Positions 34,651 to 61,100 of a stretch of DNA of 64,000 nt are shown here, piece after piece; positions within the stretch are counted from its first letter, which is position 1, and every line of letters starts with the position of its first letter. The notes beneath the pieces were generated by a model. The model saw only the letters and a program-made list of their open reading frames with translations. It had not been told where the DNA came from and did no database searches. Both the position numbers and the translations under genes were made by a program. This DNA comes from Nautilus pompilius (Eukaryota > Mollusca > Cephalopoda > Nautilida > Nautilidae): contig JACATO010001143.1 of NCBI GenBank assembly GCA_018389105.1, forward strand, positions 124,001 through 188,000. Direction: 5' to 3'.

Positions 34651-35325
34651 TTAGTCAATGGACTCGTCAATCCAACTTTTAAACATCCCAACTTGAGTGT
34701 AAACACCAAACCTGTTGCGTAAGTCACAGCCCTGACCCCACGAGACAATGCCGACCAGGATCCAGTGATCGGCGTACTTCATGATCAGTGGCCCACCACT
34801 GTCTCCTTGGCAGGAATCCCCATGGTTTTCTGTTGCATAACCCGCACACATCATGCTATCTGTCAGCGGCGACTCTGGAAATGAGCTCTTGCATCGCTCC
34901 GGCCTGACGTATGGCACCTTGACTTCATGGAGGTACTTTGCCAGTATCCTGGAGTCTTTCCACCCACAACCAGCAGTGATGCCTTGCTTGCCACTCTTCA
35001 ACAAGCGCGCTTTGATCAAAAATTCCTGCGACTCCAAGCAGATGGGTGTAATAGTGGCACTGTACTTCACCGCTTTCTTCAGTTTGATCAGAGCAATGTC
35101 GTTATTGTAATCGATGTTGTCAAGCCGGTAATCAGGATGTAGAATCACATTCCCAAATTCCACAGCAGTGCCATTCTGACCACTGCAGGTCTGCGTGCCC
35201 AGGTATATTCTAACGTTGTTGTTGTTAAATGGCCGCCGTTTTGTGTGCTTGAACTCGCTCACACAGTGGGCCGCAGTCAGTATCCACTGGTTGCTGATCA
35301 GAGACCCGCCACAGAAGGCAGATTT
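34651..35325 (-). CDS. Protease exon 16: trypsin catalytic domain and stop
   Basis: The acceptor is cctctacag. The exon holds the whole catalytic core: WILTAAHC (His), NNDIALIKL (Asp), GDSCQGDSGGPL (Ser, with the S1 Asp six residues earlier) and IVSWGQGC with Gly at the pocket entrance. It ends FKSWIDESID and a stop at 34651-34653. Nothing is missing from the fold, so an active trypsin-like enzyme is expected. Confidence 0.95.
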   Translation of the reverse strand, partial: KSAFCGGSLISNQWILTAAHCVSEFKHTKRRPFNNNNVRIYLGTQTCSGQNGTAVEFGNVILHPDYRLDNIDYNNDIALIKLKKAVKYSATITPICLESQEFLIKARLLKSGKQGITAGCGWKDSRILAKYLHEVKVPYVRPERCKSSFPESPLTDSMMCAGYATENHGDSCQGDSGGPLIMKYADHWILVGIVSWGQGCDLRNRFGVYTQVGMFKSWIDESID

Positions 35326-38300
35326 CTGTAGAGGAAGAAAAGTACAAACAGCTTTTAGTTATTTCTGAAATTCCACTGCCCTTTATAGACCTCCCCTATC
35401 AAATTGTTTAATAAGGAAACGTTAAAAGAGAAAACTGATGATGTTTCTTTAATTTGGTTGGTTGATTTTCCTTGGAAGAAAAATAATGGTAAAGGGGCTG
35501 CAGACAACGACTAGAGGGTTCTTATGTAATGAGATGTGCCATACTACTATCATTTTGATTCATATATTCAAAGTAACTTACTTTTGCACTGTCATGAAAT
35601 ATTGCAAACCATGGTGCTGACCCAACAGGTGCTTTATACCCACTAGTGATTCGTCCTCTAGCTTCAGGAGAATTGATTTTGGGTCGGCCACAAACTGAGA
35701 GAGAGAAAGATGGCAGTCTGGGATTTGATTTTTTGAGCTAAGATGCAAATTAACACAAGTACTCAGAAATTACAGTAACAGTTCAGGGAGATGAATTGCA
35801 AAAAAAAAACCTTATGAGATGAAATCACACACTCTCTCTCTGTCCAAATCATTTAGACGATTGTGAGGAAGACTCTAGTGCGGCTATAAATTATATCTAG
35901 TCAAGGAAACTTATATTTACCTAGATAAAAGTAAAGCGAATCAATTTGTATTTATAATGTAAAACATATTTAAATAGCTAGTTTAGCTTTTTATTTTTAA
36001 TTAGGATATTGTCTCTTACATGCAGGCAGAGGTCTCAGTAAAACTGGAGCTTTATGTAGATGTTACAGAAATTAGTTTCTTCAGATGAAACAAGTTATTC
36101 TCTATGAAAGAGACAGGCAATTTTGGTGTCACAAAGGATAAATCTAGTTCCATCTCTAATTTGTTATCACAAATGCTTTAAAAACTGGTAGATGGATTTT
36201 TAGAAAGAGCTGAGCAAGAAGCCAAAACAAACCAAATAACTTTACCCCTCTTGTTTTAAGAAGGTGGTTAGAAATATTTAGGGGCTTGGAATAGATGTTG
36301 ATAGTAAAGAAAATACATCAAATCATCATGTGGTGACTTACTTTTATGTACCACATTGCGCTTGTTTAACTTCAGCCAGATTGAAATTTTTGAGGAGCAT
36401 TCTCTTGGACTAGTGTGTATACATGTGTACTTCCCTTCATCAAACAAGGTGATGTTCTTTATCTCAAGATAACCTTCCTCAATCTGAAAAATCAATAACA
36501 AACACGTTAAAAACAGTTTTGAGATAAATAAGTGATTAACATTTAATATGTTCAAATATTTACCATTTGTACCTTGGATAAATACTAACTCACCTGTTTT
36601 TGACTGACACTACCCACCATGTACTGTATGTGGAGGTATTGCATCTTCATCACTATCCTTTGAATTTTGGTTAATTTAATGGCACGACTGCAGCCATATT
36701 GCTGAATTGAAGTTTTGACATCAGATGATTCCACACTGAAAAATTCAGTGGGTTCTCGAGCAGTTTCGTTCACTGCGTCACACATCCAATAATGTAAAGG
36801 AGCTTACTTGCATGTGCATCTACATTACCGTCCACACACTGCTAAGCTGTCATTGCAATTAATGTAGAAAAATTTTAACCAAAATGTTAATGAGATGGAC
36901 ACCATCCCAGATAATTTCAAAGCCTACCTTTATTAATTATAAAAATTGATTATAGCCTGAATTAACAGATATTGTCTGTCAGAAAATCAATCAATCATTC
37001 CTATTTATAGACTTGCTATCAATAAAATTTGAAACGCGAGTTTGTTTTTTTCAAAATGTAAGACTATTAAAATAATTGCCGTGAGTTATCTCCCTTTGAT
37101 TTTTAAGACCAAAAATGTTGAAAATGCCACGAGTTATCTCCCGTTGAGTATTTTGTTGCTCATGAATAATGGCCACACGCACACCTTTTCATTAAATTTT
37201 TAAAAGAAAAATGCCAACAGGAATAATTTTCGCAAGTTCAGATTTATCCTCCCCAAAATGAAGCTAAGTCAAAGGCCTAACTCTGTTTGATGGTGCAGTT
37301 TCTTCATCAGCTGGATCCCTGGAAGAAGTGCAGACAGAAGATCACTGGTAAGTCAGATCTCGGGCCAATTTAACAAAAAAAAAAAAAAAAAATCTCCCAA
37401 ACACAACTTTGGAAAAATGCTTAATGCAAACAGAGTTCATTATTTTCTGCCTCTTGAAAGCAGCATTACTACAGTCCAGGGTCTGTGGCATGGCAATATT
37501 TCTTACCGGTGTTTGCTGGACTTCAGACATTGCATTATGGGAATAAGTAAACTTCCTATCTGCTGATATTAAGTTCCACAGACATTCTTAGCCCTAAAAT
37601 AAAAGGTCCACAAGTCTCAAAATCCATTGATATCTCAATTTGATGAGATTTGTTTTGAAATGCATTGAATAGTCTTTTTTTTATAATCTAACCCCCCCCC
37701 AACATGGGATCCACTATCAAATATCAAGATATCTGCTTTCATCCTGAAGAAAATTGGCTGCTGTAAACATTCTGATTATGTATGCAACATGCAACTGTTC
37801 ACACATCTACAACTAACGAGTGAGCTGAGCTCCCTCAGGAAGTAATGTCCATATTGACCATGAAGTTATAAATGCCCTCTCACCTTTAGTTTATCGTTTG
37901 CTGTGATGTCACTGTGGTCTTTCAACCATAGTACAGTTGTTCCCTTTTCTGAGACATCACAAATGAGAAAGACACTTCTATCACCAAGATTAGCAGTTAC
38001 GTTTTTAGGTTGGCGCACATCTTTAAAAAAAGTTATATAATTTGGGTTTAGAAAAACTGAAAAATTGCTACTTGAAGGAGAATAGAGATAATACACAACA
38101 ATGGGGTCATTGGTTGAGTGCAGTAGTAGTGTTACAAAAATAAACAAGCACTTAGAAAATATCTAACTTTATTTATTTCTTTGGTTTTAATTGTTGTTAT
38201 TAAGAAAAAAAAAATCAAATGGCCTTTCACTGAAAGCTTGTGCAAGCCGTGATGTCTCCCTGCCTCCTGGTAATAACTAAACTGGACTGGGGGGGGGACC

Positions 38301-41300
38301 CTGTGCAAGCCGTGATGTCTCCCTGCCTCCTGGTAATAACTAAACTGGACTGGGGGGGGGACCCTGTGCAAGCCGTGATGTCTCCCTGCCTCCTGGTAAT
38401 AACTAAACTGGACTGGGGGGGGGGACCCTGTGCAAGCCGTGATGTCTCCCTGCCTCCTGGTAATAACTAAACTGGACTGGGGGGGGGGGACCCTGTGCAA
38501 GCCGTGATGTCTCCCTGCCTCCTGGTAATAACTAAACTGGACTGGGGGGGGCCTGTGCAAGCCGTGATGTCTCCCTGCCTCCTGGTAATAACTAAACTGG
38601 ACTGGGGGGGGACCCTGTGCAAGCCGTGATGTCTCCCTGCCTCCTGGTAATAACTAAACTGGACTGGGGGGGGACCCTGTGCAAGCCGTGATGTCTCCCT
38701 GCCTCCTGGTAATAACTAAACTGGACTGGGGGGGGACCCTGTGCAAGCCGTGATGTCTCCCTGCCTCCTGGTAATAACTAAACTGGACTGGGGGGGGACC
38801 CTGTGCAAGCCGTGATGTCTCCCTGCCTCCTGGTAATAACTAAACTGGACGGGGGGACCCTGTGCAAGCCGTGATGTCTCCCTGCCTCCTGGTAATAACT
38901 AAACTGGACTGGGGGGGGACCCTGTGCAAGCCGTGATGTCCCTGCCTCCTGGTAATAACTAAACTGGACTGGGGGGGGACCCTGTGCAAGCCGTGATGTC
39001 TCCCTGCCTCCTGGTAATAACTAAACTGGACTGGGGGGGACCCTGTGCAAGCCGTGATGTCTCCCTGCCTCCTGGTAATAACTAAACTGGACTGGGGGGG
39101 ACCCTGTGCAAGCCGTGATGTCTCCCTGCCTCCTGGTAATAACTAAACTGGACTGGGGGGACCCTGTGCAAGCCGTGATGTCTCCCTGCCTCCTGGTAAT
39201 AACTAAACTGGGGGGGGGCCTGTGTAAGCTGTGATGCTTTTCTGTCTCTTCACATGTGAACCAAATGTGGATATATCAGATGTGAGGCACAGAGTTGGTA
39301 ATAGTTGTTAACAGTAACCATGGCACTACACTATCTGATCAAATATTTGCAGTTAAAAAACAATTGTGAACATGCTGAAGCTGAGAGTTTTGTCCACAAT
39401 AAGCTGTTTCCACTGTAGTAATCTTTTTACATTAATATTTTCATTATACACTTAATCCAAATTAGAGTACATGTTCAATAAGTGATATATTGTACAAATT
39501 AGATCACTACTTCTAAACAATGCTTTACAGTAAAATTGTTTCTTATATAACGCATTTGCGATATAGTAGAATCTTGCATTAATCTGATCAACACAAAACA
39601 CACTTTGTAAAATAATAAAATCACAGACACGCACTTTTGATGTCCTTTAATTGTAAACCAATTATAGTAATTCAATAAGCAAAATGTTTTATGATAAGCA
39701 GTTATTAGTGGATTGAGAATCAACCCTAACCTGATTTAATGAGACAAACAAGAATATAATGTGTGTCATTTATAGTGCAAATTCTCTAAAGATCAGATTT
39801 TTCACTTGTATGGTGATGTAGAAAAACAGTTAAAAGAATGGCCAGAAAATTAATATTTAGAATCTAATGATCCAAGAGATGCAGAAAATCTCTTCTTTCA
39901 TTACACTTACAGCTATGGCAGCTAAACGTTTTGCATCACCCTAGGATTTCCTAATTTTGCTTGATAAATTCAAATTAAGCCTGCTGATCTTGCTTACATA
40001 ATGATGTATGTACACCTTTGGGTCTTCCGCACAAGTAATGGAAAGTTTTTTTTTTTAAATTATGAAATGTAACAATTGGAAATTTAACATGCACGCACAC
40101 ACACACAATTACAAAGACCTTATAACAAGTGGGGGTCAATTAGAAGTACGTATTTAAAAGTATCAAATTATAACAGCGTAGATTTGAAGGTAGATTTTTG
40201 TTAAATTTGTAGGGTAGGGGCAAAACATTTGGCCATGGCTGTACACTCTGCAGCATACATACCAACCAATCATCCAAGCTGTTGTAATGGTCCAGTAATA
40301 ATTTTTGTTGGTTCCGAAGGAATCAAGATGCAGATTTAATTATCATAGCTGCTAAATATGGCCGTGAGTTAGGTGTTGCAGTGAGATAGCTAACCTGAAG
40401 GGCAAAAACTGTGATCGGTCTCCATGGAAAAAAATCTATGGCCATAACTTCAGTTTGTTTAGAGACCTCTAATTCTCTTGGCCATCTTGTTTTATAATGC
40501 ATTTTTTTTTCCCACACTAATTGTGTCACCTTCAATAAGGCATGATGGATGAGAAAATAACTTAATACTTTCGTACTCACCGTGTAAGAGTTTAATCTTA
40601 CCTAAACTGCATTTTGGTAATACGTGCAAGAATGTCTTAGCACGGTACTCTTTGCCACCAACTCGGATCGCACATGTGTATTCACCTTCGTACTCCTCTC
40701 TGGCATTTTGGATTATGAGGGTCTTTCTGTTGACCACAGACAGACCTTGGAAGACGCTCTGTTTATCTAAGAGTCTGTCCTCAAACAACCTGATCATCAA
40801 AAAAAAAAAAGAAACAAAGCCAGGTAACTTTAACAAGAACAAATAAATTTTACTTCTGAAGCAACCAATTACTCTAGATCTGCATTACTGGTTGACCCTT
40901 AGGAGCTGTGACAAACAGTACCTTACTCATTACTATATCCCTTTGTAACGACAAATCTGCATATAGTTCAAACCCCCACATGGTTTGTATTATGGGTCTG
41001 TTGACTAAGTATAGAGGCAGTTCGACTAGTGTGAGACTGGGTGCCCCAAGCTTGTTTCTAGTGAATCGTAGTTAAATTTTGTTGCTAAATACATTTTTAA
41101 TTTATCGCAATCTCTCTAAAATCAATTAACTGTTTATTATCCTCCCCAATACAGAAGCTAACAGTGTTGTCCTCTAGATAAGGCTAACCACGTTGATAAG
41201 GTTGATGTTGTAATTGCTAACTCTACAAAATTTTAATTTGTTAATGAAAAGGTCCCATGCATATGTTCAACATCTCGAAAGATTTCTGTGACAGTATCTA

Positions 41301-44300
41301 TTGTTTATTAGATGGCACTGTCATAACTTACCTGATTATAAATTCCTGCAACCTGTTAGATTGCAGCCAAATATCCTTTATGGACCTGCCAAAATGTCCT
41401 GTGACACCTGTTTCGTCGACCACAGGTGTACTCCTGCTAATCCTTGCAACTTGTTTCTATTAATTACTACGGTTTTAAACTGTCAGTGGTGCAGCAATGC
41501 TTGATGGCTCTACTCAGACATTTTAGTTTTGAGGTGTCTAACAGATGGCGTACAGCTGAATGCTGATCATTTGTGTACCTTTCAATAAACTCATTAGAGT
41601 GGCATAGCCTACTGAGTTGCATTCAGTTCCAGCTACCAGTAAAGAGTTGTTACAAAAACTGATTTTTTGGAAGGTTAATTAACGTTTTATGTATTGAACA
41701 TGTATTCTTAAAAGTTGGCTTCTAAAGCTATTTTACTTTTATGGACAATTTTTAATTTATACATACATCAAATTCTCTTTTTTCACTTTCTAGATGGATT
41801 CAGAAATGGAAGCTGCCAAAGGTCATACATTACTTTACGAAACAAAGAAAGAGGAAGTAACTGATTTGAAAAAGATGTCAATGAAAATGATTGCAATGAC
41901 ATTCAAAACTGTAACACACAAAATAAATTTAAAGTTATAAAGAGTTACAGCTTTTCAGCTATTGTGCTAACCTACCATTGGAGTTCCTCACCTCACAGTC
42001 AGATCTTTTCACTTTTCCGGTAAACTTCCAGAAATCAAATAATCTGTAGTTTAGTTACCTCTTGATTTTCCTGCTGATATCTGTCTTAACCAATTGCATC
42101 ATTGTAGCACAGTTGCTCCTGACATCCCTGAGCCACTGATGTCTAATTCATTAATTTTTGGCTGCATCTAACATTTATTTTATTAATAGCAAGTTTTATA
42201 TACAAACTGATGGTGTTGCCATGGGTTACCCCCCTTGGCCCTGTTGTAACAAATACATTTATGTCTTCTAATTACATTACCAATTCTAGGAAGTCATAAT
42301 CTACTTATGAACTCTGGAAGGATCATAATTATATTGTTATTTCTAAGAATTCATCAAATTTAGTGACTTAATATACTTTTTTAAAAAATGAACAGAATTC
42401 TAAATGTATTGAATAAATTACTACTGGTAGATGATAAGAGTGAAAGTACAAATCCATTTAGTAAGCATGTAATGTTGGTTTTTTCCTGAAAAGTGAAATT
42501 CATCCCAAAACAGCAATTCTCCATCACTATAATAACTAAAATATAGAGAGAATCTTGCAGCAGCTACACCATTACAGAGCTCCAATTTAATATTTTGCTA
42601 GGTTGAGATGTTCCACTAAAAACACAACAGAAGCTCAATAACATGTCAAGTCAAAAAAAAAAAAAACAAAAGTAAAACTAAATGAGACAGAAGATATCAG
42701 CAAAACGAATCTGCATGTTTCTTTCAAGTTCTTCCATCCTTATATATTTTAGCCAGTTCATTAAAAGTTAAACAAGAATCACATACTTCTCCATGGCTAT
42801 GTTCTTTTGTTACTTTAGTAAGCTAGAAAATGCATTCTTCAGAATTATTACATTTTCAATATTTCTGGTGTTTATAACCAGTACATAGCATCGATTCCTC
42901 TCTCATCATCAGAGAAAATCACTTACCAAATAACCTGGTCTGTATCATCTCCTATCACATTGCATTGCAGTTTCCCACTTTCTGATCTTTTCAGTGTTGA
43001 AGTCCCTTTTATTTCCAACTTAATCGAGTCCTGTTGGAAGACAATTAATTTGGGAAAACATTACAAAATAAAATCTGTAAAAACAATAATATAAGTTTAA
43101 AATTATTTCGTTATCTCACTAATCTAAAATGTACTCACCTCTCCATGGTTACATACTTCTGTTACTTCACTAAAACCTAAGTGGGAAAGTATACACTTTT
43201 CCCCCCCTAAACTGAAACTCACATTTTCAAAGTTATCCACTTTTTCTATTTAAACAAAAACTAAACAAAAAATTTACATACTTCTTCACAGTTCTTCCCC
43301 TTGAATTCAAAGAGACACTCGCACTTGTATCCAACCAATCCATCTTCCTCACAGGTACCACCATTCTGACATGGATTGCTCATGCATCTTGGAGGTATCT
43401 CACAGTTACTTCCTGTGAAGCTGTTGATACAGAAGCACCTAAAAAAAAAATAACATGACAATTGTTCTTTTCAACTCAGCAGCCAGCTTGGTCTTTGACT
43501 GATTTCACGAAGAAACAATGAAAAGATTTTTTAAAAGAACCATTTTTACACACACACACACACACACTAAAAAAATAATCAATCCGATATTTCATGTACA
43601 TACTAAGGGTGGTCAAACAAAACCCAAGAGTAATGGTATTTGGTCTGGCTAAACATCCCTAATAACTACACATACATGAAAGAAAAAATGTATTAACAAA
43701 GAGCTATATTAAGTTACCTCCATGAAAATATCCTATATTTTTTTGTTTGGTGCCTATTATATGCATTCTTTCCATCTAAGCTCTTAATATCTCCAAAAAA
43801 TTTCATTATTCCCGTAAGTTTCTCCACAACTGCAGAACATTAGTTGACCACCACTACTTTAACCCTTCAGCTTAAACTATCCCAAACAAACCCAACCAGA
43901 TTGAGATATGGAGATTGATGTGGCCAGTTCAGCATTTCCAGGAATTTTTCCTACTCCGTTTCATGGCAGATATTATTTGTTGAGCTTTACAGAAGATCCG
44001 GAGACGCCGACTTGTTTGTTTCCCAGTGAAGTCAGGGCATCAATGCCCCAGAAGGTACAGCAAGACGCTGCAAAAATTCCCATTTTTTTTTGTTTTTCCT
44101 TTGTAGCAAACTCATCAAATCTTTCCAATCTTAAAATTCCTGAAATAGCCCATGTTTTCAAATCGGCCCTCATTTTGCCCTAATGCTTTCTGTGGGCAGC
44201 TACCCAACTCAATCAAGCCAATCTCTCTTTTATGATGGACGTCGTGAAGATGGATGGAGCTTTGTGCAGTAAAAACGTCATCAGCTGCTAAAACTTTCTA

Positions 44301-47300
44301 ACAATTGCTCCGTTGTGTTCCTCTTTTTGTTGTTGTTGTAGACCACAACCGAACCGTGACTGCTTTCCTAGCACCCATCTCTCACACCAGGCCGAGAAGC
44401 TCTTACTTGCCAATCTATTTCAAACTGAGAAAGGACCAAACTTTGTTAAGAGCAGTGATAAGTGCACTGTAATTTCTTGTTTTGAACCAATTTTACCTGG
44501 TCACAAATTTTAAAAAAAGTTGTTCTACTACAGGATACATGCTCATTTTCCACAAAAAATAGCTGCAAAAAGATATTATAATCACTTTATAATTCAATTG
44601 CAAGAACAATCATCAATGACATTCCACAGTTTTTCATTTTCATATTGTTACAGTAGCCAGGCAATGTGGCTCAGTGGTGTGTGTGTGTTGGCTTCAGGAC
44701 CCTAAGGGTCCTGGGCTCAACTCCCGCTAGTGGTACATTGTTGTGACCCTTGAGCGAGCTACTTTCCTGGCATTGCTCCAGTTGTTGCTGGGGAGTGGCC
44801 TGTGTAGGCACTCAGACAGAGGAACCGAGGGCAGGCGGGGGGGGGGGGGCTCTCTGTAGCCATGACAGAGGCAGGTCTCCTATGACAAGGAAAAGTCAGA
44901 AGAATAAACCACTGCTGAAGACGGATGCGCTGGGCCGGAGTGCGAATAACAACGGTGCAACGCATCCCACTTTCATGAAACGAGTGATCGAAGAAGAAGA
45001 ATATTGTTACAGTCAACTTAATACAGGATTTAAAAAAAAAGAATTACACCAGTACTTACTGTCCGCCACGTATACAGGTGCCTCCATTCAGACATGGTCC
45101 AGCACAGCCTAAAGCCAAAAAGAATGAAAAAACATCGAGCAAATAATCAAAAGTAGGCACATTTCTAGTTATCAGTTGAGACTGTAGAAGATCATATTGT
45201 TTAGTTTATACAATTAAATCTTTGGGGGGGAATCTGCTTGGAGTATTTAATTTAAAGTGTTAGGTTGTTTTTTTTTCCATTGGAGTAAAAAGAGAAGATA
45301 CATGTAAAGAGATTCCCTGATGTAAACATCCATCCTTATATCATTTGCAAAGCAGATTTCAGACCATTGAATCTCCTGAGCACTAAAGCAGTCAACATCA
45401 ATAAATAAACACCTTGCAATATTTTTTTCACAGAAGAAACATAAATGGTAAATCAAAAACAAAAATACTTTACAATGAACGATATAATTGAGTGTTGCAC
45501 TACTGTACATCCTTTTCTTTATCCACTATACTCTCTGAAATGGTTATCTAAAGCCACAGGTAGCTGTTGTTTTGCTTAGATGGGCGGCGACAGATTAAAT
45601 TGAGGTTACTGAGTGCAGATCTACGATAACCAACCATACAAGCGACAAGGGCTGCAGCTTTCGTCCTGCAAAGTTAAGCGGATGCAACTTTGTCTCCAAG
45701 AGAAACAAGGGTCTATGACTTACCGCCAGGGATTGAAAACGTATAATTGGCACTGAACCCTGTGTACTGAACTGTGGCATCTGTTATGAATTCCAATCGC
45801 AATCCATTTTCTGTCGATTTGTAAAATTTCACTTCACCTGGTTTCATTATCCCACACAATTTATCAATGGCTTTACTACCTTAAAAAAAGATTAAAATAA
45901 GATTCATTTGCCTGATGGGGTTTTGATTTGATTAACCTCTTTATAAAAAAAATCAAAATTAATAAATATTACCCTGATCTGATGATATCCTAACAAAAGA
46001 AATGAATATCAGAGCATCATTCTATGTTATTACTGGGATACCATTCTTCAACAACATATACAGATATAAAAAGAATAGTAAGAAAAGAGACAACTCTGGA
46101 AACAGCACCAGTATCACCTGCAGATATACTTGAAGAAAAAGAAATGGAAATAGCATCAGACACTATTCCTAGAGAATTTGGGAGGAAAAAAGATAAAAAT
46201 AACATCAGTCTCTTTTCCATTGAGAAATCCAGAAGAAGTATTGGAAATAGCATCAGATTCTATTGCCATAGACACATTTGGAAGAAAAATGCATGGGCTA
46301 TAAGAGTAATCTGTCTGCACATTGTAGCTAAGCCTCTCCACCACGGTTGGACCAACCTGAACAAGAGACTTCCCAGGGCATGGAATGTAAATCATTTTCT
46401 ATCATTAATCCTGGCAGTTAACCCTTTTAGGAGTATATCAGCATATTTACAGGATTACGGTCAGAATCAGTTACCACTTTCTGTAAATATATGGGTGTAA
46501 TCCTCAAAGGGTTAAACACGTGAAAAATTTACATTTCTACTCTCATTCTAAACACTGGATGGAAACTTAGAAATTCACAACTGCACATGTGAGTTTGTGT
46601 AGAAATAGGGGTCTGCTTCTGTGTGTGTGTGTGTTTGTGAGAGAGATGGAGAGAGAGAGAGACATTTGGCAGACTACCTTTCACTAATCTCTCCACAGAC
46701 CCACTGTTTTTCCATTCACTGTGGAGGAAGTGGTGCGGAGTCTTGCACACTTACTGGGGAAGGACCCGTCTTTAATGATGAGGCGGTCGAACTCGCAGTC
46801 GTCGCCATCCTCCAATGCGAAGGCGCTGAACGTCAGGGTGACGACGTAGCTCTCTGGCGCCAGCAGTACCATGATGCAGTTCAGGTTCGGCGGGTAGATG
46901 ACAGGAAAGCCCGGAGAGTACAGCTCGCTTCCCTCTTTCTTGTAGACGCTGTCGCACACTGCAAGCAGCAGAGAACAGATTTATAACAGAGACTCTAATC
47001 AAACAGTAGCGCAGCGCTGTTAACAGGGACAGGGTCGGCGACCACAACACACTTCTCCCGCCTGTCCTTTTCTTGTGAAAGGTGCATTATTATATAACAG
47101 ACAAAGGGGACGTCCCCGGTCGTGCGGTTACTCGGGGCGAGACCGGTGTGTCGGGTCTAAGAGTGGAGGCGAGACCGGCTCCCGGACCTCTCTTCCCCCG
47201 AGATCGGTATTTGCGCCCCTAACCCTGGCTACCTTAACGGGAGCTCGGCCACCACCCTCCACCCCGGAGATACACTCTCACACTCACTGTCACACTCTCA

Positions 47301-50300
47301 CTGTCACTGTCACTGTCACACTCTCACTGTCACGCACCATAAAAAGATTTTAAAAAATCGGTCAAGTCGCGCGCCTAACCCCGTCTCCACGACAACCAGG
47401 TGGGAGGGAGGTGCACGGCTAGAAGAAGACACCCGGTGATATACCACTTGTGTTTTGGACGTAGTTCTTGGCACCTGTTGGATTGGTCACGTTTAGCGGG
47501 CGGCTTGTGATGAACTCGAAATCTGCCTTGAATCCCAAAGGCGACTGGTAGTAGCCGTCGGAGACGAAGCGGAGGAGGAGGCTGATGCCGGACGAGTAGA
47601 TGAACGAGAGCGTGCTACTTCCGCAGAACCTCCCAATTAGACTGGAGTCTGAAAATAAACGAAGGGCGAAATGCGGATCAGTCTCTCCCCATGAAAAAAG
47701 GGCCAAATCCGCGGTAACACCTGTCAGTTATCCGATACGAGAACGATATCTGACTCGTTTTCCTCACCTGCGATCCCGCTCTATCCCTTTTATTTCTTTG
47801 ATAACTAACCAAATCGTATCGTATCATATAAACGACCTAGGGGTTATTAGCTATATTTCCCTGCCCACACCGGCACGAAACTTATTTCCATAATACACAC
47901 CCACAATGGATTATTTACAGCAGACTGTGACGTACAAGAACCTGCCTGACAAAATTTGCATATTTCAGGTGTTATCACGTAGGTAGTGCGCGCTAACATC
48001 CCGTCAAAGATACGATATTTCTCGTGAACTCGCGGCCATTATTTACGTGGGGGATGGGGAAGGCGATGTGACAGCCCCAGCACTTGCCACACTCGATAAC
48101 AGCGACGACAGAAAATAACTTTTAAAAAAAAGGGGGGGAGTCTATTGTTATCTCATCCACTCAGACCTCACGCGCCCCGGGTGGGTGACACGTGAGAGAT
48201 TCTTCTGTCCAATAGAAATAAAACGCTTCGGAAAGTCTGATCAGAGAACATGACGGGTCCCGGCTTCGATATTTCTCGTCGTCTGCAGGTTGCGCCGATT
48301 TTCGGAGGAGACCTGACAAAAGTCTTTGTACCCTAACGTTTTCATCCCACCGTCAAGTGTACAGATAGCAGCCTCATGGTGCGGGCAGCAATCTAGCCAG
48401 ACGGAAAGGTATCTCGACCAAACGCCGTCGCCATCATAAAAAGCAAAAAACGTCAATCTCTCGTTTATTTTCTACAAAAATTAACGATAATATGTATAAC
48501 AACAAGCGGCCATAGTATTTAGCCATGGCACTGCATGGTTATGAACCCCCCTAGTGTTTGTTTTTTGTATTAAATGCAGATAACCAAACACACTTGGCCT
48601 TATGACGATCGTTATCAGACCTCTCGAGTATCGAATAATAAACAACCGAACTATGTAAATCTGATATTTTAAGATAGTTTAATGAGTTCCCCAACGAGAA
48701 AACAATCAGTCGAACTTAGGCTAAATTCTTCCCTACCTTACAAATTTTCTTAAATGTGGAGTTTCCAGGCCTGCCCAGCATTACTCGGGGTGTGTCCAAA
48801 CTAGGCACTCACGAAATGTTATTGTGTGTTTGTGTCTGGCAACTTTGTGAATTATTCTTGGCATTCATTCTATTACCTATATCAGCCGCTAAAATACTTC
48901 GCCCTTGCACTGTAATAACTCAGATTTTTCTCGAAATTACGCTTTCTGATTTAGTATCTGCGATTATAGCTGACTATTAAACTCCATGTCCCCTCCGTCG
49001 ATCATTTATTCAGGTTTCCATCTAAAACTTATCCGCGTCTTTTGGCGGTATTAACTTCAGCAGACATTTTGCCATCGTCTTCAAAACTGTCAGTTGTCAC
49101 CGTCCGACTGCCATTTCGACGGTGATGCCAAGTAAATTCCGTTAAACCAGCACCTTAAAATGCGCGGTAACTACTGCACAAAATAAGAATCCGAGATCGG
49201 ATGCAGGGTGGGTGGGAAAGCGGTTTCTCCGGAAAAACGTTCAACACCGTGTCAGAGGCTCGGCTCGTTTGTGTACAAGATTAAACCGCCAGCTACGAGG
49301 CGAGCGCACACATATATCTCTAACCAAACCAAAAGTAAGCACGGTACCAGTATTTCCTGCTGGAGGTGGACCCATACCTGTGCCGGGGCCGTCGAAGATT
49401 TCCAGAAAGTCGAACCGACAGTACACGTCCTCTTCCAGGTCAAAGGCCGAAAATTTCAGTTTTACCGTCTTCCCTGGTGGAGCCTGCGACATAAAAGAAC
49501 TCGGCAGTTCGTGGAATGCTTCACTGACTGACGGAAACGGAGAAACAAAAGTTTGTCCCAGAATAGGGATTTTTACTGGAATTAATTAGGGGCTCATTGC
49601 TACGTCTTTAATAACTGCCATCAAGGACCAAAAGACTGCCTTTACATGGCACTAAATATGAAAGATAATAAGTTCCGCGCGAGTACCACAAAATAGGGTC
49701 TTCTGGCCTTCTTTCCCCGTTCTGACTGTTGCCTTTGCCACTTTTCGACCCCCGAGAGAATTTCCGTCCGCCCTTAAATCTTATTAGTGTTTTGTTTCTT
49801 TGTTGCATTTTATCCCACCCCTCCAGGAAGAACGCGATCGGGTCCCTTGCAACTATAGACAGCTCCCTCTCCTCCTAGCCCGCAAGGCGCACTCGGACTC
49901 GAACCGCGCCTTCCATCGCTTATATTCTGATTAAGACGAGGGGTGGTGTCCTTTCCATTCATTATCTTTAACCGAGAAGTTTGCTGAGCAATTAGGAAAA
50001 CAGGATATTCTCGGCAAACAGAAACTGGCGTTATTATCAGCTAAAGTGGGCTTCTCGACGCCAGGTGGAGCTTCCGCTCATCTCGGGCTACTTCCGGCAC
50101 GTCCTGGACCGGGCATTGCCGAGCTGCTGAGCGATTTATGTTCCACAAATATATAGGTGCAATGAAACACGACATCTGATGTGGGTTAGAATGTGGCTAG
50201 TTAGTTCCAGCAGACCAGCCTAGAGGCACTACGTGGGGTCAGGGCGATATACGGAATTGTCCTTACAAAGGTTTAGATCAACGGTCAAGTACCGCGTGTC

Positions 50301-53300
50301 ACAGCCTCTATTGGTCAACCTGTAGTGAATAACACAGGTTTGAAGAGTAGTCGGGTGCAAATGAAACGCAGGTGGTATACAGGAAGCTTTAAAATCCCCT
50401 GAAAAAAAAATGGTGATTCGAAACGTGCGTGTGTCAACTGGATCCATTCATCGGCACCATTACCCTCAGTTGTCCTTTCAAACTCGACCACACCCAGCTG
50501 CCACTGACAGATCATCTGCCGTCCACCCCTTCCTAAACACGCATGCTGGGCCCATCTAATCCCTTATTTCTTTGTTTGCCACCCCGTCCTCTAATCTGAG
50601 AACTACAACTCTTCTCCTAACATTATTCTGCGAAAAGGACTGGCATCCGATGAACAGAGGAGTCGCTGTGACCGAAAACTCAGCGAACCACTGAAGTAAT
50701 GAATGAGCTTTTACCTGTGGAGTGGGGAGAGAGAGGAGATACTTACCCTCAGTATGTAATAACAATCGATATTGAATCCATATGGGTTAGGGTAGCCCGG
50801 GCTGAACAACACACCAGGTTCCGTCTTGGTTTTATTACAGGAATACAACGAAGCATTTTCTGTTAAGAGAATAAACGGACAAAATTGAGGTATAATTTAG
50901 TTTTCGTTTAGTAGAAGGGAAGGAAGACATTACTACTGTTACGACTCTCCCAATCTCTAGATGTGAAGAATATTAATCGAATATATATCGGGGCATTTCA
51001 GACATGGTCATGTACACACACACACACACACAGCCGACCCCCGGTTATTCGCGGAATCGCAGACATCTTCCGCGATTTTTTATGGCTTTTTAACGCTAAA
51101 TTATTAACAACAATATAATTTACTAATTTTGTAATATAAATGCTAACGTAAATTCTACGGGAAAATCCGAAAGCTTATCCGGGTGCACTTAGACGAAAAA
51201 TACCTGTACCTTTGTCGGACATGTAGAAGAGTTCAAAGCCTAGAGCTTGGTATGTCTCGTCGCTTTTGAAGGTCATCACGATGCGGTTGGAGGCGGAAGT
51301 AAAGAAGACAGCTGAGGAACCGCAAAAGCGCTGTCGTCTGTCGTCGCCCGGTATTCCGAGATCGCCGATTTCCAAATAGTCCCAGCTGAAATTTGACAGA
51401 AGAGGAGACGATCAGCGATAGTCCGTCGCCTTGGAAACTGGAACCACCGTGACGGTTTGACTCTTAGAAAGATAGCGGTTCCGTTTACAAGCCAACACCT
51501 TCGAATGATGACGTAACGGCTTCTGCAGAGTTAGGTGTCTCTCGAACCGAAACACGTATATTCACCAAACAAAAGGAAACAATGTTTCCTAATTAAACAC
51601 GTAAAAAAGCAAAACAACATCAAGTGGACCTCCGTCCAGGTCAGCAATAACCTACAGAACTAATGGTGTTTACGTTGTATCCTAGTCTCTTTCGTACGTC
51701 ACCCGACCAGCACCCAAGAATGGCTGTTTTTGAGCTTCCCCTGGTATCAACTTCTGGTACCTAGAAAAAAAAGATTTTAAAAAAACGGTAAGCATCTCTG
51801 CACTCACTCGCAATCTCTGCTTTCTTCCAGGGAGAATCTACCAGAATGAACATGAATGGTTTTGCCGACTGGGACATTCACTACCCACACACACCGGGCT
51901 GCTGCAGGGTAGGTACCGGGATACCCCGGACTCCTGATTGACCCGGCAGCGTTGTTAATGCTACCGCCACAGCCTGAAAGCACATGAGGGAAGACTGATT
52001 AGTTTGAAGGTAATAGTCACGTGGTTAAAATAGGTGAATGTCAAAAGAAGCATTGCCAGCTGTAAACAGAAACGTGGGACAGTAGTTGTGTCAGGCGATA
52101 AACTGTTTGGCGGCTGGACCACAATAGTCCAGGGTATGGGGGGAAAGCGGGGGAGAGCATCAGTCCAGGGATCGAGCGGCTTTGCGATCTGGAGCTGTCG
52201 ATGGTTGCGCGCGATGTCGTACACGTCTTCATCTTCCGAGTATCTTTGCACACCGAGAGGAGAGAGAGAGAGCTGACATCCCAGGTCTTGAGCATCTCAC
52301 AGAAATGAGCCATCCAGGCGGCGGGACGCCAGCCTTTGTGACTTGGCAAGTTACCCGAGTGCGGTGTACCCAGAAAATTCACTCCTCTGTTTAGCTGCGA
52401 GAGAAAGCTGGAGAAGAGCGGGACGAAATCGTGCCATGGAGCCAATCCAGACCGAGTCGTCAGCCCTGACGGTTCGGTAAAGTAATTATTCGTGAAAACT
52501 TCTCCCACGGCAAAAAATACCACGCGTAATGTTCACCGATCGGACTCCGTACACACCCTCTCTCCCCCGGTATTCTAATTAATCTCTTCCCATCTGTTTT
52601 AATGATCCAGCATCCTCTCTTTCGCCCAAACAATGTATTGAGGATGAGGGCAAACCAATGAGTTAACACGGAAGCAAGATTTCTCTGACTTATGTTTCAT
52701 ATGGCGGTTAATTATCTTTCTAGCATCCCAGCAGCTTTGCTGGCAGGTGACCTCGCTCTACTCTTTCACGTCTTGCAGATTTTTGTCAATAATAACCAAG
52801 TTTTTCATTTAAAAAAACAGCTACCGAAACTGCCCCCGTCCTACTCCCATCTCATGATGATGAGAGCCCTTCTCTCATCTCTCGCTTGAATGCAGTTTGT
52901 CTTCTGTTTTTTTATGTATTGAACTCGATTTCACGCTTTTATTGACCGATCTAATAAATCGTTCCGGTTTATTTGTAACTTACGCCTAGCAGCTTCGCTA
53001 GTACCTTTAGTACCGTTTCCAGAACCACCTTCGAACCCGCGTGGAGGGAGGAGGGGGGACCCCCTGGTGTCAATTTCCTAAACCGAGGTTAGGCCACACG
53101 CTTAATAAGTTCTTTAGCTACACAACAACCCCAACAATAATGCAATCATCCGAGACAGGGAAACAAAATCGTCTAGCTACAGCGAGAGAACCTGAAAGTG
53201 GGGTATACTTTTCCTTTGCCCTGATTCTCTTCCCGCCCACTATTACTCAGAGCAAGGTTCCGTCAGTACGCCTTTTAAAAATATCTGGCACGTTCATGCC

Positions 53301-53406
53301 CCGTACTTCAAAGAGCGACGGGCGGACACTTACCTGGATCGGACAGCGCTTCTCGAGCGCAAACCCAGATGAAGAGGAGACCGGAAACGCTCGTACACAG
53401 ATTCAT
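34651..53406 (-). CDS. Secreted CUB-EGF-Ig serine protease (complete, 16 coding exons)
   Basis: The predicted product is a 920-aa extracellular trypsin-like zymogen. Coding exons in transcript order: 53406-53334, 51973-51808, 51385-51210, 50859-50747, 49483-49378, 47648-47445, 46958-46755, 45879-45724, 45108-45060, 43438-43282, 43030-42927, 40789-40602, 38020-37884, 36483-36342, 35694-35582, 35325-34651. They sum to 2,763 nt and every junction has matching phase. Domains by residue: signal peptide 1-22, CUB1 26-138, CUB2 about 145-270, CUB3 about 281-399, EGF1 400-430, EGF2 about 432-468, Ig1 469-560, Ig2 566-655, trypsin 660-920. His716, Asp772 and Ser872 form the triad, with a trypsin-type S1 Asp866. 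CUB-linked proteases act in complement, coagulation-like and developmental cascades; the role here is inferred only. I know no named family with this domain order, so no symbol is given. Confidence 0.88.
35582..35694 (-). CDS. Protease exon 15: activation segment of trypsin domain
   Basis: The acceptor is ctctctcag and the donor aaa|gtaagt. CGRPKINSPEARGR then ITSGYKAPVGSAPWFAIF: the expected cleavage is after the last Arg of ARGR, and the new N-terminus would be ITSG. The Cys of CGRP can pair with Cys792 (TPIC), as in two-chain proteases. Confidence 0.88.
36342..36483 (-). CDS. Protease exon 14: Ig2, second half, and linker
   Basis: The acceptor is gatttttcag and the donor aaaa|gtaagt. GYLEIKNITLFDEGKYTCIH is the Ig F-strand. 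A basic linker (KLNKRNVVHK) runs into the protease domain. Confidence 0.85.
36484..37883 (-). other. Protease intron 13
   Basis: AT-rich. It holds two copies of the GAGTTATCTCCC motif 48 bp apart (about 37084 and 37132), and poly-A and C runs. No exon seen. Confidence 0.4.
37884..38020 (-). CDS. Protease exon 13: Ig2, first half
   Basis: The acceptor is tttaaag and the donor aaag|gtgaga. PKNVTANLGDRSVFLICDVS, then TTVLWLKD, gives the second Ig B-strand Cys and C-strand Trp. The poly-G minisatellite begins about 220 bp upstream in the transcript. Confidence 0.85.
38239..39236. repeat. 62-bp minisatellite with poly-G junctions (about 16 copies)
   Basis: About 16 near-identical units of roughly 62 bp (core GATGTCTCCCTGCCTCCTGG, then TAATAACTAAACTGGACT), each separated by a run of 6-10 G and ACCCTGTGCAAGCC. 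Almost all differences between units are in G-run length. The spurious open frames across it are a result of the repeat. A single-copy relative, in reverse orientation, lies at 63775-63865. The array sits in a protease intron. Confidence 0.92.
39237..39352 (+). repeat. SINE tail adjoining the minisatellite
   Basis: Shares GTTAACAGTAACCATGGCAC and surroundings with the SINE at 21087-21365, which suggests the minisatellite grew from an internal segment of such a SINE. Confidence 0.5.
39353..40601 (-). other. Protease intron 12, left part
   Basis: AT-rich, with a CA tract near 40090. No exon or element recognised. Confidence 0.4.
40602..40789 (-). CDS. Protease exon 12: Ig1, second half
   Basis: The acceptor is gatgatcag after a T-rich tract; the donor is ttag|gtaaga. 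RKTLIIQNAREEYEGEYTCA is the diagnostic 'L.I.N....D.G.Y.C' Ig F-strand. Confidence 0.85.
41330..42480 (+). pseudogene. Penelope-like reverse transcriptase relic
   Basis: On the + strand, inside a protease intron and opposite to the host gene. Motifs in order: DLPKCPVTPVSSTTG near 41378-41440 (family 'GLPK.HK...PLRPIVSSTGS'), FYIQTDGVAMGYP near 42190 (family 'Y.Q.DGVAMGSPLGP'), then after a one-base slip in a C-run LGPVVTNTFM, then LWKDHNYIVIS near 42310 (family 'W.RYVDDIF.I'). The catalytic Asp pair is lost and there are stops, so it is dead. Penelope-like elements are the best fit because of the DGVAMG-PLGP box. Confidence 0.6.
42927..43030 (-). CDS. Protease exon 11: Ig1, first half
   Basis: The acceptor is ccaacag and the donor ttg|gtaagt. 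SGKLQCNVIGDDTDQVIW gives the B-strand Cys and the C-strand Trp (the W is completed by the next exon) of an Ig-like domain. Confidence 0.8.
43282..43438 (-). CDS. Protease exon 10: end of EGF1 and EGF2
   Basis: The acceptor follows a T-run and tag; the donor is gaa|gtatgt. CFCINSFTGSNCE closes EGF1. Then RCMSNPCQNGGTCEEDG and YKCECLFEFKGKNCEE make a full second EGF. No Asp/Asn calcium-binding EGF signature precedes the repeat. Confidence 0.88.
43548..43567. repeat. CA microsatellite
   Basis: A (CA)n tract of about 20 bp in the intron left of EGF exon 10. Confidence 0.8.
43605..44200 (-). pseudogene. Tc1-like transposase relic
   Basis: On the - strand near 43925-43870, WPHQSPYLNLVGFVWDSL matches the Tc1 signature 'WP.QSPDLNPIE..W..L', which holds the last catalytic acidic residue (here replaced). 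Sequence on both sides continues in broken frames to the family's C-terminal end. Many substitutions and stops. It sits in the intron between EGF exons 9 and 10. Confidence 0.6.
44651..44990 (+). repeat. tRNA-derived SINE
   Basis: Box-A-like ATGTGGCTCAGTGGTGTG and box-B-like GGGCTCAACTCCC, then a body with TGTGACCCTTGAGCGAGCTA. A long G-run at about 44838-44850 interrupts it. Typical SINE head spacing, no protein. Confidence 0.6.
45060..45108 (-). CDS. Protease exon 9: EGF1, first part
   Basis: A 49-nt micro-exon. The acceptor is ggctttag and the donor aca|gtaagt. It reads GCAGPCLNGGTCIRGG, the first three Cys of an EGF repeat. Confidence 0.85.
45109..45723 (-). other. Protease intron 8
   Basis: AT-rich, with a G-run near 45222. 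Nothing recognised. Confidence 0.4.
45724..45879 (-). CDS. Protease exon 8: CUB3, second half
   Basis: The acceptor is tttttaag and the donor ggcg|gtaagt. KLCGIMKPGEVKFYKSTENG, then LRLEFITDATVQYTGFSANY, completes CUB3 with the expected fourth Cys and C-terminal strands. Confidence 0.87.
45880..46417. other. Protease intron 7, with an internal imperfect duplication
   Basis: A 158-codon open frame on + (46024-46500) has no known domain. Two stretches 96 bp apart share GAAATAGCATCAGA and a following GGAAGAAAAA, suggesting a decayed tandem repeat rather than a gene. Confidence 0.35.
46422..46511. mobile_element. piggyBac-type palindromic MITE (90 bp, TTAA target sites)
   Basis: TTAA at 46418-46421 and 46512-46515. 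Left end CCCTTTTAGGAGTA, right end read inward CCCTTTGAGGATTA; the arms continue with ATATTTACA, so the element folds into a near-complete hairpin. Its ends resemble but do not equal the MITE at 13481. Confidence 0.75.
46619..46660. repeat. GT/GA microsatellite
   Basis: (GT)n followed by (GA)n, close to the 3' side of protease exon 7. Confidence 0.75.
46755..46958 (-). CDS. Protease exon 7: CUB3, first half
   Basis: The acceptor is gcttgcag and the donor ccca|gtaagt. Reads CDSVYKKEGSELYSPGFP, NLNCIMVLLAPE, then LTFSAFALEDGDDCEFDRLI: the third CUB opening through its third Cys. Note it is 204 nt, the same length as exon 6. Confidence 0.87.
46959..47444 (-). other. Protease intron 6
   Basis: GC-rich and CpG-rich. 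It contains a CACTCTCACTGTCA minisatellite at about 47273-47335. No exon. Confidence 0.45.
47445..47648 (-). CDS. Protease exon 6: CUB2, end, and linker
   Basis: The acceptor is ttttcag. RFCGSSTLSFIYSSG, then LLLRFVSDGYYQSPLGFKADF, closes the second CUB; a linker with two N-glycosylation sequons (NVT, NTS) follows. Two donors share phase 1: gtg|gtatat at 47445 and acag|gtgcca at 47475, 30 nt apart. The longer form is given because its donor fits the consensus slightly better. Confidence 0.82.
47649..49377 (-). other. Protease intron 5
   Basis: CpG-rich compared with the rest of the window. No exon or mobile element recognised. Confidence 0.4.
49378..49483 (-). CDS. Protease exon 5: CUB2, middle
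   Basis: The acceptor is tcgcag and the donor acag|gtatgg. PPGKTVKLKFSAFDLEED, then CRFDFLEIFDGPGTG: the CUB 'P-G..I.L.F..F.LE....C.YD.LEI-DG' core. It carries the acidic residues that bind calcium in many CUBs. Confidence 0.88.
49484..50746 (-). other. Protease intron 4
   Basis: CpG-rich. GGTTCGAGTCC, a tRNA B-box match, appears on the - strand near 49894-49904, but no A box was found. A 72-codon frame at 50447-50229 has no domain match and is not called. Confidence 0.35.
50747..50859 (-). CDS. Protease exon 4: CUB2, opening
   Basis: The acceptor is cttaacag and the donor agg|gtaagt. It carries YSCNKT, then GVLFSPGYPNPYGFNIDCYY, a clear second CUB start. Phase 0 at the end. Confidence 0.85.
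51018..51031. repeat. CA microsatellite
   Basis: A short (CA)n tract in the intron between protease exons 3 and 4. Confidence 0.7.
51210..51385 (-). CDS. Protease exon 3: CUB1, second half
   Basis: It completes the Cys-Asp junction as D-WDYLEIGD, the CUB 'YDYLEI-DG' calcium-site strand. RFCGSS supplies the fourth Cys, and IVMTFKSD then GFELFY form the C-terminal strands. The donor is aaag|gtacag, phase 1. Confidence 0.88.
51808..51973 (-). CDS. Protease exon 2: CUB1, first half
   Basis: The acceptor is gctttcag and the donor ga|gtgagt. It shows CGGSINNAAGSIRSPGYPGT, the classic CUB opening (Cys, 'G-I-SPGYP-YP'), then CVWVV for the second Cys strand and FSLEESRDC leading to the third Cys. 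Confidence 0.88.
51974..53333 (-). other. Protease intron 1
   Basis: CpG-rich. The open frame of 160 codons at 52523-52041 has no domain and no splice support. A SINE-like copy lies at its 5' end (52980-53100). Confidence 0.4.
52980..53100. repeat. SINE-like repeat (shares sequence with 29995-30120)
   Basis: CCTTCGAACCCGC, a G/C-rich tract and CCCCTGGTGTCAATTTCCTA then AGGTTAG, parallel to the copy near 30 kb. Confidence 0.45.
53334..53406 (-). CDS. Protease exon 1: signal peptide
   Basis: ATG at 53406-53404 starts MNLCTSVSGLLFIWVCA, a typical short signal peptide with a hydrophobic core and small residues before cleavage. An upstream in-frame start at 53538 would add 44 polar residues and bury the signal, so the inner ATG is preferred. 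The donor is ccag|gtaagt, phase 1. Confidence 0.8.
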
Positions 53407-58068: not shown

Positions 58069-58189
58069 TCACGGATTCAAGCAGAGATCTTTTGCAACCA
58101 TGGATGCTGTAAGATTGTGCATTTCATTTTTATGACTTATGTAATTCTTAATGGCAATGTCCCGTGCTTCTTCCCACTTGTATAGAGCC
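58069..58189 (-). CDS. LTA4H: LTA4H last exon
   Basis: The acceptor is cctttcag. ALYKWEEARDIAIKNYISHK, then MHNLTASMVAKDLCLNP and TGA at 58071-58069. Matches the conserved 'H.ASMHPVTA.LV.KDL' end. Confidence 0.9.
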
Positions 58190-61100
58190 CTGAAAGGAAA
58201 GTGAACAGTTCCATTCAACAAATAGTTACCATCCCACACAAGGCTTTCCTTCAAACATTCGTGGAACAATTCAAAACATTCAATTTTTCCTTATCTGACA
58301 GTTAGTCAAAACTATAATCCAGTGACGATTCTCATTTTTTCAATGTGGAACTTTTAACAAAGGAGATGCTGCCTTGATTATTTCTCATGATAACATCTTT
58401 TAAACATTGAGAGTTTACTCTCAAACACTTATCCACCCCAAGGTCCCCCCCTCTTTCTGTCCACCCTCTCTCACAAGCCATCTTTCTTTCTCTTCCACCC
58501 TTCCTTTGTCTCACGTCTTCTCTTTATTTCTTTCTCTGTTTCTTGTACTCCCACTTTCTTTCTGCCCCATTTATTTACTTACTTACCTTTCACAAAGATA
58601 TGCATCTATGAAAGCAAAAATCCTGTAAACTATTTTTAATAAAAAAACAGAAAAACAACCAGTCGTCCCAACTGGGTTGTGAAATGCCAGAGGCTGCTTA
58701 CTTATAAAGTGGTCTAACAAATTTCATCCGTCCCTGCTCATTAACAAACTGCAGTGTGTGAGGTATGGCCTCATCCCATCTGGTTTGCAGACACAACAGC
58801 AACCACCTAAAAGACAAAGTTGAAGCCCTCTCAGTTTATATTAATAAAAACAAAAACAACAGAACAGCTCCAACTATACAGTTTACATTACCAGAAATCT
58901 GCTTATTTATTTATTATGGTTCCAATATTTAAAAAAGGCTTTCATGATCTATTTACACAGACTTTAACTTACCTATTTATTTTTTCAAAAGGACATTAAA
59001 CACTTTATTAAAACTTTTCATCTGACCAACATTTTCTTTCTTTTCAGAAATGGAGATGCAATATCTAGCTACATATTTTTATCTGGCTAAAATGTAGAAT
59101 GTACATGGCAACCAATCTTTTCTGTGTAACAGATGAAATTCATTTTAAACTGCTTCAAGATTTATTGATCAGAAGCATACCTGAGATTAGTGTTGCATGG
59201 AAACAGTAGGCAGAAAAGGTAACTAACACAAAACTTTGCACACTCTGTAGTAATTATATTTCCCTTACAATCATGGAAGAATAGTAAACAGAAATAAGGC
59301 ATTTTCGGTGTCACCACAGAAGATACTCCTTCAAACTTGCATGCCAAAATCAGCACATAAACTCCCTATCAGAAGAGAACAAAATGCATTAGCTTGTGAA
59401 AAGCAATAAAATATGCTAGAGATTTGAAGTCAGGGCCTCAACCATAGCAGTCCAGTAGTCTGCCCATAGCTATAGTTCATCCACATCTTGATATGCAGGA
59501 AAAATGAAAAGTCGAAACTGGTAATTAAAAATTGTCAGTAAAGATAATGATAAAAACCTTCAAATCAATTGTTATGAAAGAATTTGTTCCTAAATCTTTA
59601 TATTGGAGTTATTTCCCTTGGATCGTTTCCAAGTAGAAAAGTATTGCTTATTTTATTAAGTTTCAAAATAAAAAAATTACTCTTGAATATATTTTGATAA
59701 TATTAAAAAAACTGAATTATTTATAAAATCGATATTTTTCTCCTTTTTTTGTCATGTAAAAAATTTTTCGTAAGAAACATTTATACAGGTTTTTGCATTC
59801 CATGAGTTATTGACCTTGAATCTTCTCTTTCATTAATTACATTAAATATTTTATGAACATATATGAATTTTATTTTGTGTACATGCATATATTATTAAGA
59901 CCATTCCAAATAAAGAAAAAAAACAAAAGACTGGCCAGTTAGTAAACAATTCAATAATAGTAGTAACCCAAATGTTTCTTATGATCCAAACTCTGCAAGT
60001 TTTAGGTTGCCAATATAACATGAAATCATTTTTTTCAAGTAACAACTTTGGATGCCAACTGCGAGGACACCAACGAGTTTTGAAGGGAGCAAGAGTAGGG
60101 TGTTTGTAGCCAACATTTAAAAAAAAAAAAGGTATTAAGGAGCACTGGGTAAGATTCCTTTCCATAAACAGAGCAGCCAGTAAGTCTGGTACCAGTTGAG
60201 GCCGACTGTGCTTTCTCCTCTGCAGCCTCCCCAGTCCAACAGCACTGCCTCTTAGCTATACCTCCCCAGCTCAACGAGAGCAACAAATGGACCCAAACCT
60301 TCAGTGTGTAAGCCTAAGCAAAAAAATTAGGAGGTAGAGGCTTGCCTTAAGGCCAACCCTCCATCCCTCTTGACAGTACAGGATAGGCCCAAAGTTGTGG
60401 AAGTCCAAGATGTTTGGAGGCATAACAAAAATAAAATAAAAGAAGAAAAATGTTGATTAGGCGTAAGTGGTGCTGAAAACAATTGGCACATCCAGCGATG
60501 ACAAATTTGTCAAGAAATTTTGACAAAACTCTTCCTTGTCTTTAAATGGCATCATAACCAAGCTCATTGATTTAATAATTTGATACTGCCATACACGCAG
60601 AGCTGGGTGCAGATGCTTAAGCAAATGGTAGAATTTATATGAACCTCTGTTGCAGATGTTCAATTTTACATGAAAACCAGCTGATGAGAGCAAATGGAAT
60701 GTCTCAAATCTCTTCCAATAAAAATTAAGCAATTTGAGTCGCTTCCCCCTAGATTGGAAAACCAGTCCAAATCACCTGTGCCTGATCTCTGAATTCTTTA
60801 CTGTAAACATTTGGTAAATTTCCTCCATTCTTTTTACTTTAGCAGTTGAAAATGTTTTCTGAAAAACAGCAAGAGTTAGTTCGTTGACTATATGTCATCT
60901 TGAAATACTTTTTTTTAAAGTAGAGATCACATAAGTTTTAAAATCTTTTTCCTCCATATCTGCAGTAGCAGCCCAAATTATTGCATCACCCAAAATAATG
61001 TTTTTTTATTTTTCAGTGCAATTATCCCCAACCAATGCAGTGTTTTGGGGGTGATTTTTTTCTGATTTTTCGTTTATGTTAACACTCACAGTGCCAGGAA

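Follow-up and report, generated by a model that had tools for sequence, protein, structure and literature searches.

The 64,000-nucleotide stretch of Nautilus pompilius DNA analyzed here (the window; GenBank assembly GCA_018389105.1, contig JACATO010001143.1, positions 124,001 to 188,000) contains a gene that probably encodes a secreted protostome MASP-like protease of the MASPL/MReM kind, a cousin of the enzymes that start complement. The gene lies on the minus strand (53406..34651) and combines CUB, EGF, and Ig domains with a C-terminal trypsin domain. This assignment is favored because the loss of CCP domains together with an Ig pair is in print for such proteases, because the calcium-ligand residues Glu/Asp/Asp occur in all three CUB domains, and because the linker resembles that of MASP-1 and the catalytic serine has an AGT codon. 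It is further favored by TED_complement matches elsewhere in the genome, where no classical MASP was seen among the candidates scored.

A Pfam profile search of the 910-residue protein gives the module order CUB-CUB-CUB-EGF-EGF-Ig-Ig-trypsin, the same order that an earlier note on this DNA had proposed. The matches are far beyond chance, with E-values of 2.1e-70 for CUB (three stretches), 2e-54 for Trypsin (one), 9.1e-20 for I-set (two), and 1.1e-7 for EGF (two). Sushi (CCP) does not figure among the 18 Pfam families reported at E-values up to 1, a list from which filters remove most matches above 0.1. The top PDB matches of the Ig domains are titin, Dscam, myosin-binding protein C, Robo, and other Ig-chain proteins (best 60 of 83), meaning a sequence likeness that is generic. 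In addition, the protein contains seven N-glycosylation sequons.

Proteases of this general build have been described in protostomes (PMC11312191; this paper, PMC9835746, and PMC5300068 are cited from excerpts). In Arthropoda, Mollusca, and Annelida, MASP-like proteases are without the CCP pair, and some contain two IG domains instead; the members listed come from Crassostrea gigas, C. virginica, C. angulata, L. littorea, O. sinensis, M. californianus, and E. scolopes, among other species, whereby the excerpted wording leaves unstated in which molluscs the Ig pair occurs (PMC11312191). For the MASP-related molecules (MReM), PMC9835746 cites Gorbushin 2019. The Nautilus protein agrees with the MASPL/MReM layout as worded in PMC11312191: a CUB and EGF front, no CCP, a C-terminal trypsin domain, and ahead of it an Ig pair, as in some MASPLs. 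It differs from the arthropod example, a C1s-like protein, in that the latter is arranged as CUB-EGF-CUB-IG2-Tryp_SPc (PMC11312191) and the former as CUB-CUB-CUB-EGF-EGF-Ig-Ig-SP. Tandem Ig domains ahead of the protease are an arrangement already described (PMC11312191), which contradicts the earlier statement that no known family places them there; the gene, once suggested to stand for an undescribed class, is most likely a member of this reported MASP-like kind. Its precise arrangement, three CUBs and two EGFs included, did not appear in the open-licence papers searched, as far as their excerpts go, and may be a variant of the reported layout.

The vertebrate-type enzymes MASP-1/2/3, C1r, and C1s share with the Nautilus protein the calcium triad of the CUB domains, a similar linker and activation site, and a protease identity of 30–34%. 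Their order, however, is CUB-EGF-CUB-CCP-CCP-SP with a calcium-binding EGF and no Ig. A classical MASP, C1r, or C1s is ruled out by module order, by the Ig pair in place of the CCPs, and by the EGF type.

Glu49, Asp57, and Asp102 of MASP-1 are calcium ligands, and in MASPs a lysine of the lectin collagen stem touches three of the calcium ligands (PMC5300068). In an alignment with MASP-1, the positions of Glu49, Asp57, and Asp102 are Glu/Asp/Asp in 3/3 Nautilus CUBs. The position of Ser104, a further calcium ligand of the classical enzymes, is occupied by Thr, Tyr, and Thr in CUB1, CUB2, and CUB3, and that of Asn105, which is a ligand in their CUB1, by Tyr, Tyr, and Val. A calcium site of this composition fits lectin docking but is no proof of it, because the same triad is also present in CUBs of other proteins.

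The protease domain retains the catalytic residues His706, Asp762, and Ser862, so the triad reported earlier is in place, with Asp856 at the specificity position. Its first 23 residues are encoded by exon 15 and residues 687–910 by exon 16, and the codon of Ser862 is AGT; in MASP-2/3, C1r, and C1s, the protease domain lies in a single exon with an AGY serine codon. The linker CGRPK...RITSG..A..G..PW aligns with CGLPK...RIFNG..A..G..PW of MASP-1, and the activation bond would be R663-I664. A disulfide between C650 and C782, predicted by analogy with related enzymes, would tie the two chains. The histidine-loop cysteines are kept in the Nautilus protein and MASP-1 but missing in MASP-2/3, C1r, and C1s. 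Two extra, unusual cysteines, C733 and C806, may pair with each other. The domain also reads ITAGCGWK (within 34651-35325) where SGWG is usual.

The whole genome assembly (727,640,739 bases in 2558 contigs) was searched for relatives and complement components. Contig overlaps of profile matches were read by eye and are lower bounds, as 144/144 trypsin, 150/228 CUB, and 150/487 Sushi candidates were scored. With the protease domain as query, 31 matches are found at E<=0.001; two are the gene's own exons 16 and 15, and the other 29 are weaker (best E 1.2e-8, 38%). Among the PF00089 matches (n=115), two span at least 150 of 220 profile positions in one frame, namely the gene itself and C936:1028989-1029495; neither search reveals a second, closely similar protease domain. 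At least three contigs hold both CUB and trypsin matches: C1097 (the gene described here), C309, and C660 (~536 kb apart). CCP and trypsin matches share at least the contigs C612, C619, C2063, C335, C893, and C2008. No contig with CUB, CCP, and trypsin matches together is found among the candidates scored, so that a classical MASP is not seen among them. A total of 23 TED_complement matches are spread over seven contigs. As a separate observation, C612, C619, and C2063 show Sushi followed by trypsin matches on the same strand within ~30 kb and hold candidates for other complement-like proteases.

Several results weigh against a MASP-like assignment. Compared with the PDB, the protease domain matches thrombin best (157.9 bits), ahead of factor X (139) and enteropeptidase (130), and no MASP, C1r, or C1s appears among the best 60 of 700 matches; the PDB holds many thrombin entries. 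In a BLASTP comparison with 10 chosen sequences, factor X (146 bits) outranks MASP-3 (135), followed by enteropeptidase (132), MASP-1 (129), C1r (127), trypsin and MASP-2 (125 each), matriptase (119), C1s (113), and chymotrypsin (108). An 11-row tree, small and long-branched, with factor X kept in and ovochymases not among its rows, leaves the domain unplaced: it shares an open fork with factor X and MASP-2/3/C1r/C1s (88/86) and falls inside no starred set, and its joining with factor X carries a long-branch warning; the highest identity in this set is to bovine trypsin (39%). The likeness to thrombin, factor X, and enteropeptidase is confined to the protease-domain sequence, as their accessory domains differ, and is that of trypsin domains generally. 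Taken by itself, the protease domain gives no firm grounds for a MASP claim. Outside this domain, the front is CUB-CUB-CUB-EGF-EGF and not CUB-EGF-CUB, the top PDB match of the CUB region is cubilin (among the best 60 matches), and neither EGF1 nor EGF2 has, by eye, a counterpart of the calcium-binding EGF motif (DVDEC in MASP-1). On the genome side, a search with MG2 gives no match, one with ANATO likewise none, with an uninformative control, and the three NTR matches all lie on contigs without TED matches; what is present are thioester-domain matches, and a C3 gene is putative.

The foremost alternative, which corresponds to the undescribed class of the earlier note, is a cascade protease that arose independently of MASP by the joining of CUB, EGF, Ig, and trypsin modules and that acts in matrix or developmental signaling. 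Module order and EGF type unlike those of MASP would suit such an origin, as would a protease domain not tied to MASP in the PDB search or the tree. Phase-1 introns bound all three CUBs and Ig2 and would ease shuffling, though Ig1 begins at phase 0. The MASP-type calcium ligands in 3/3 CUBs argue for MASP descent, though they are common to other CUB proteins. The Ig pair ahead of the protease is already described in protostome MASP-like proteases (PMC11312191), and we regard a separate origin as unlikely, though worth keeping in mind.

The gene model itself was rebuilt from sequence by listing reading frames and then scoring splice sites with weight matrices of our own. All 15 introns follow the GT-AG rule, and the open frame runs unbroken over all 16 exons for 911 codons including the stop, which bears out the single-frame splicing of 16 exons noted before. 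The length of 920 codons given then is longer than that of the rebuilt model, and the choice of two alternative in-frame donors would supply exactly the nine codons in question: 51204 instead of 51210 in exon 3 (+2 codons) and 40581 instead of 40602 in exon 12 (+7 codons). Both alternatives score slightly above the donors used in the 911-codon model, so that either length is possible as judged by splice scores. The 15 donors lie at the 90th–100th percentile (n=1224 GT sites) and 14/15 acceptors at the 96th–100th (n=1296 AG sites), the acceptor of exon 13 being the weakest (71st); these percentiles are no independent test, as the same scores partly guided the choice of sites. Exon 1 is the least certain part of the model; by eye it encodes a putative signal peptide, and a 19-residue hydropathy scan (cut-off 1.6) flags nothing anywhere in the 910-residue protein. 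Overall, the gene is judged to be real and intact. A minisatellite is located in intron 12, between the Ig domains (38239-39211; 62-base unit, 15.8 copies, 97% matches).

The architecture could also be explained by two adjacent genes merged in the reading, one for a secreted CUB-EGF protein and the next for an Ig-trypsin protease. The model was read from DNA only, and exon 10 continued beyond its donor runs into a stop codon, so that a short CUB-EGF isoform is possible. The frame, however, joins at 15/15 introns, and intron 10, which leads from the EGF to the Ig exons, measures 251 bases, so that a gene end, a promoter, and a signal-peptide exon would hardly fit in; the intron ahead of the last protease exon is similarly 256 bases long. 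The two-gene artefact, named in the earlier note as what would overturn its claim, is rejected on the 251-base intron and the unbroken frame, and its probability is very small.

Least probable of all is an ovochymase-like or other CUB-trypsin protease: several CUBs and a trypsin domain would agree with it, but there is a single C-terminal trypsin stretch, whereas ovochymases have several protease domains interleaved with CUBs and, to our knowledge, lack the EGF and Ig modules present here. The genome does contain a second CUB-trypsin locus (C309:1141500-1159000), with CUB matches followed by a trypsin domain divided among three or more exons, unlike exon 16. Its frames, read by eye on the plus strand (at least 38 residues, only those with two cysteines or more than 70 residues), show CUB halves, split trypsin exons, and a MAM-like stretch after them; no Ig was noticed in them.

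Table 1. Exons of the Nautilus protease gene and the modules that they encode (window positions)
Feature	Position	Strand	Basis or remarks
Exon 1: start codon and signal-peptide-like segment	53334..53406	-	Donor score 12.6; signal peptide by eye
Exons 2-3: CUB1	51973-51808, 51385-51210	-	Pfam; calcium ligands E74, D82, D122
Exons 4-6: CUB2	50859-50747, 49483-49378, 47648-47475	-	Pfam; calcium ligands E193, D201, D242
Exons 7-8: CUB3	46958-46755, 45879-45724	-	Pfam; calcium ligands E319, D327, D371
Exon 9: first part of EGF1	45060..45108	-	Pfam
Exon 10: remainder of EGF1 and whole EGF2	43282..43438	-	Pfam
Exons 11-12: Ig1	43030-42927, 40789-40602	-	Pfam
Exons 13-14: Ig2	38020-37884, 36483-36342	-	Pfam
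Exon 15: linker C650, predicted activation site R663-I664, protease residues 1-23	35582..35694	-	
Exon 16: residues 687-910 of trypsin domain (H706, D762, D856, S862) and stop	34651..35325	-	

The protease gene is flanked by two others. Past its 3' end, a WNK kinase gene lies on the plus strand (gene span 14084-25363), with a Pfam match to CCTL2_WNK at 14084-14344 (E 8.3e-15); the plus-strand frames 17627-19861 and 24500-25363 appear by eye to be its later part and have no Pfam match. Past the 5' end, a leukotriene-A4-hydrolase-like gene lies on the minus strand (58072-61411). Herein, Leuk-A4-hydro_C matches at 58072-58290 (E 1.1e-5; 25.9 bits, below the cut-off of 27), and 61151-61411 on the same strand is leukotriene-A4-hydrolase-like by eye, with no Pfam match. 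At 61461-62446, a 40-base unit is repeated in tandem (24.6 copies). The frames 8472-9287 (plus strand) and 22654-23175 (minus strand) have a common segment around PPLHIKLGLMKQFVK and no Pfam match in either; they may represent an as yet unnamed gene of mobile or repeated type.

Read as a MASP-like protease, the protein would be made as a zymogen. Its three CUBs would use the MASP-type calcium sites to dock onto basic residues on a recognition protein or target, with the two EGF domains as spacers, and the two Ig domains would replace the CCP pair, serving as a stalk and possibly as an exosite. Once cleaved at R663-I664, the protein would consist of two chains linked by C650-C782, and the active enzyme would cut after Arg or Lys. 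The likely substrate would be a C3-like thioester protein; the discussion of PMC11312191, citing oyster work, states that C3 cleavage can be induced by a mollusc MASP that has no CCPs. The earlier idea of a secreted cascade protease of immunity is plausible in this light, with secretion and immune role both putative.

It is an open question what starts complement in protostomes, and this gene bears on it. MReM may start complement in other spiralians, and none was found in the nemertean studied, according to the excerpts of PMC9835746. It is conceivable, if rather improbable, that the three-CUB, two-EGF protease is the sole C3-type complement initiator in its lineage, that its Ig pair works as the CCP pair does (as stalk and substrate exosite), and that the third CUB allows more recognition stems to be held than by a vertebrate MASP. 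With a complete gene model, in which the activation, catalytic, and calcium-site residues are intact, the replacement of CCP by Ig domains becomes testable.

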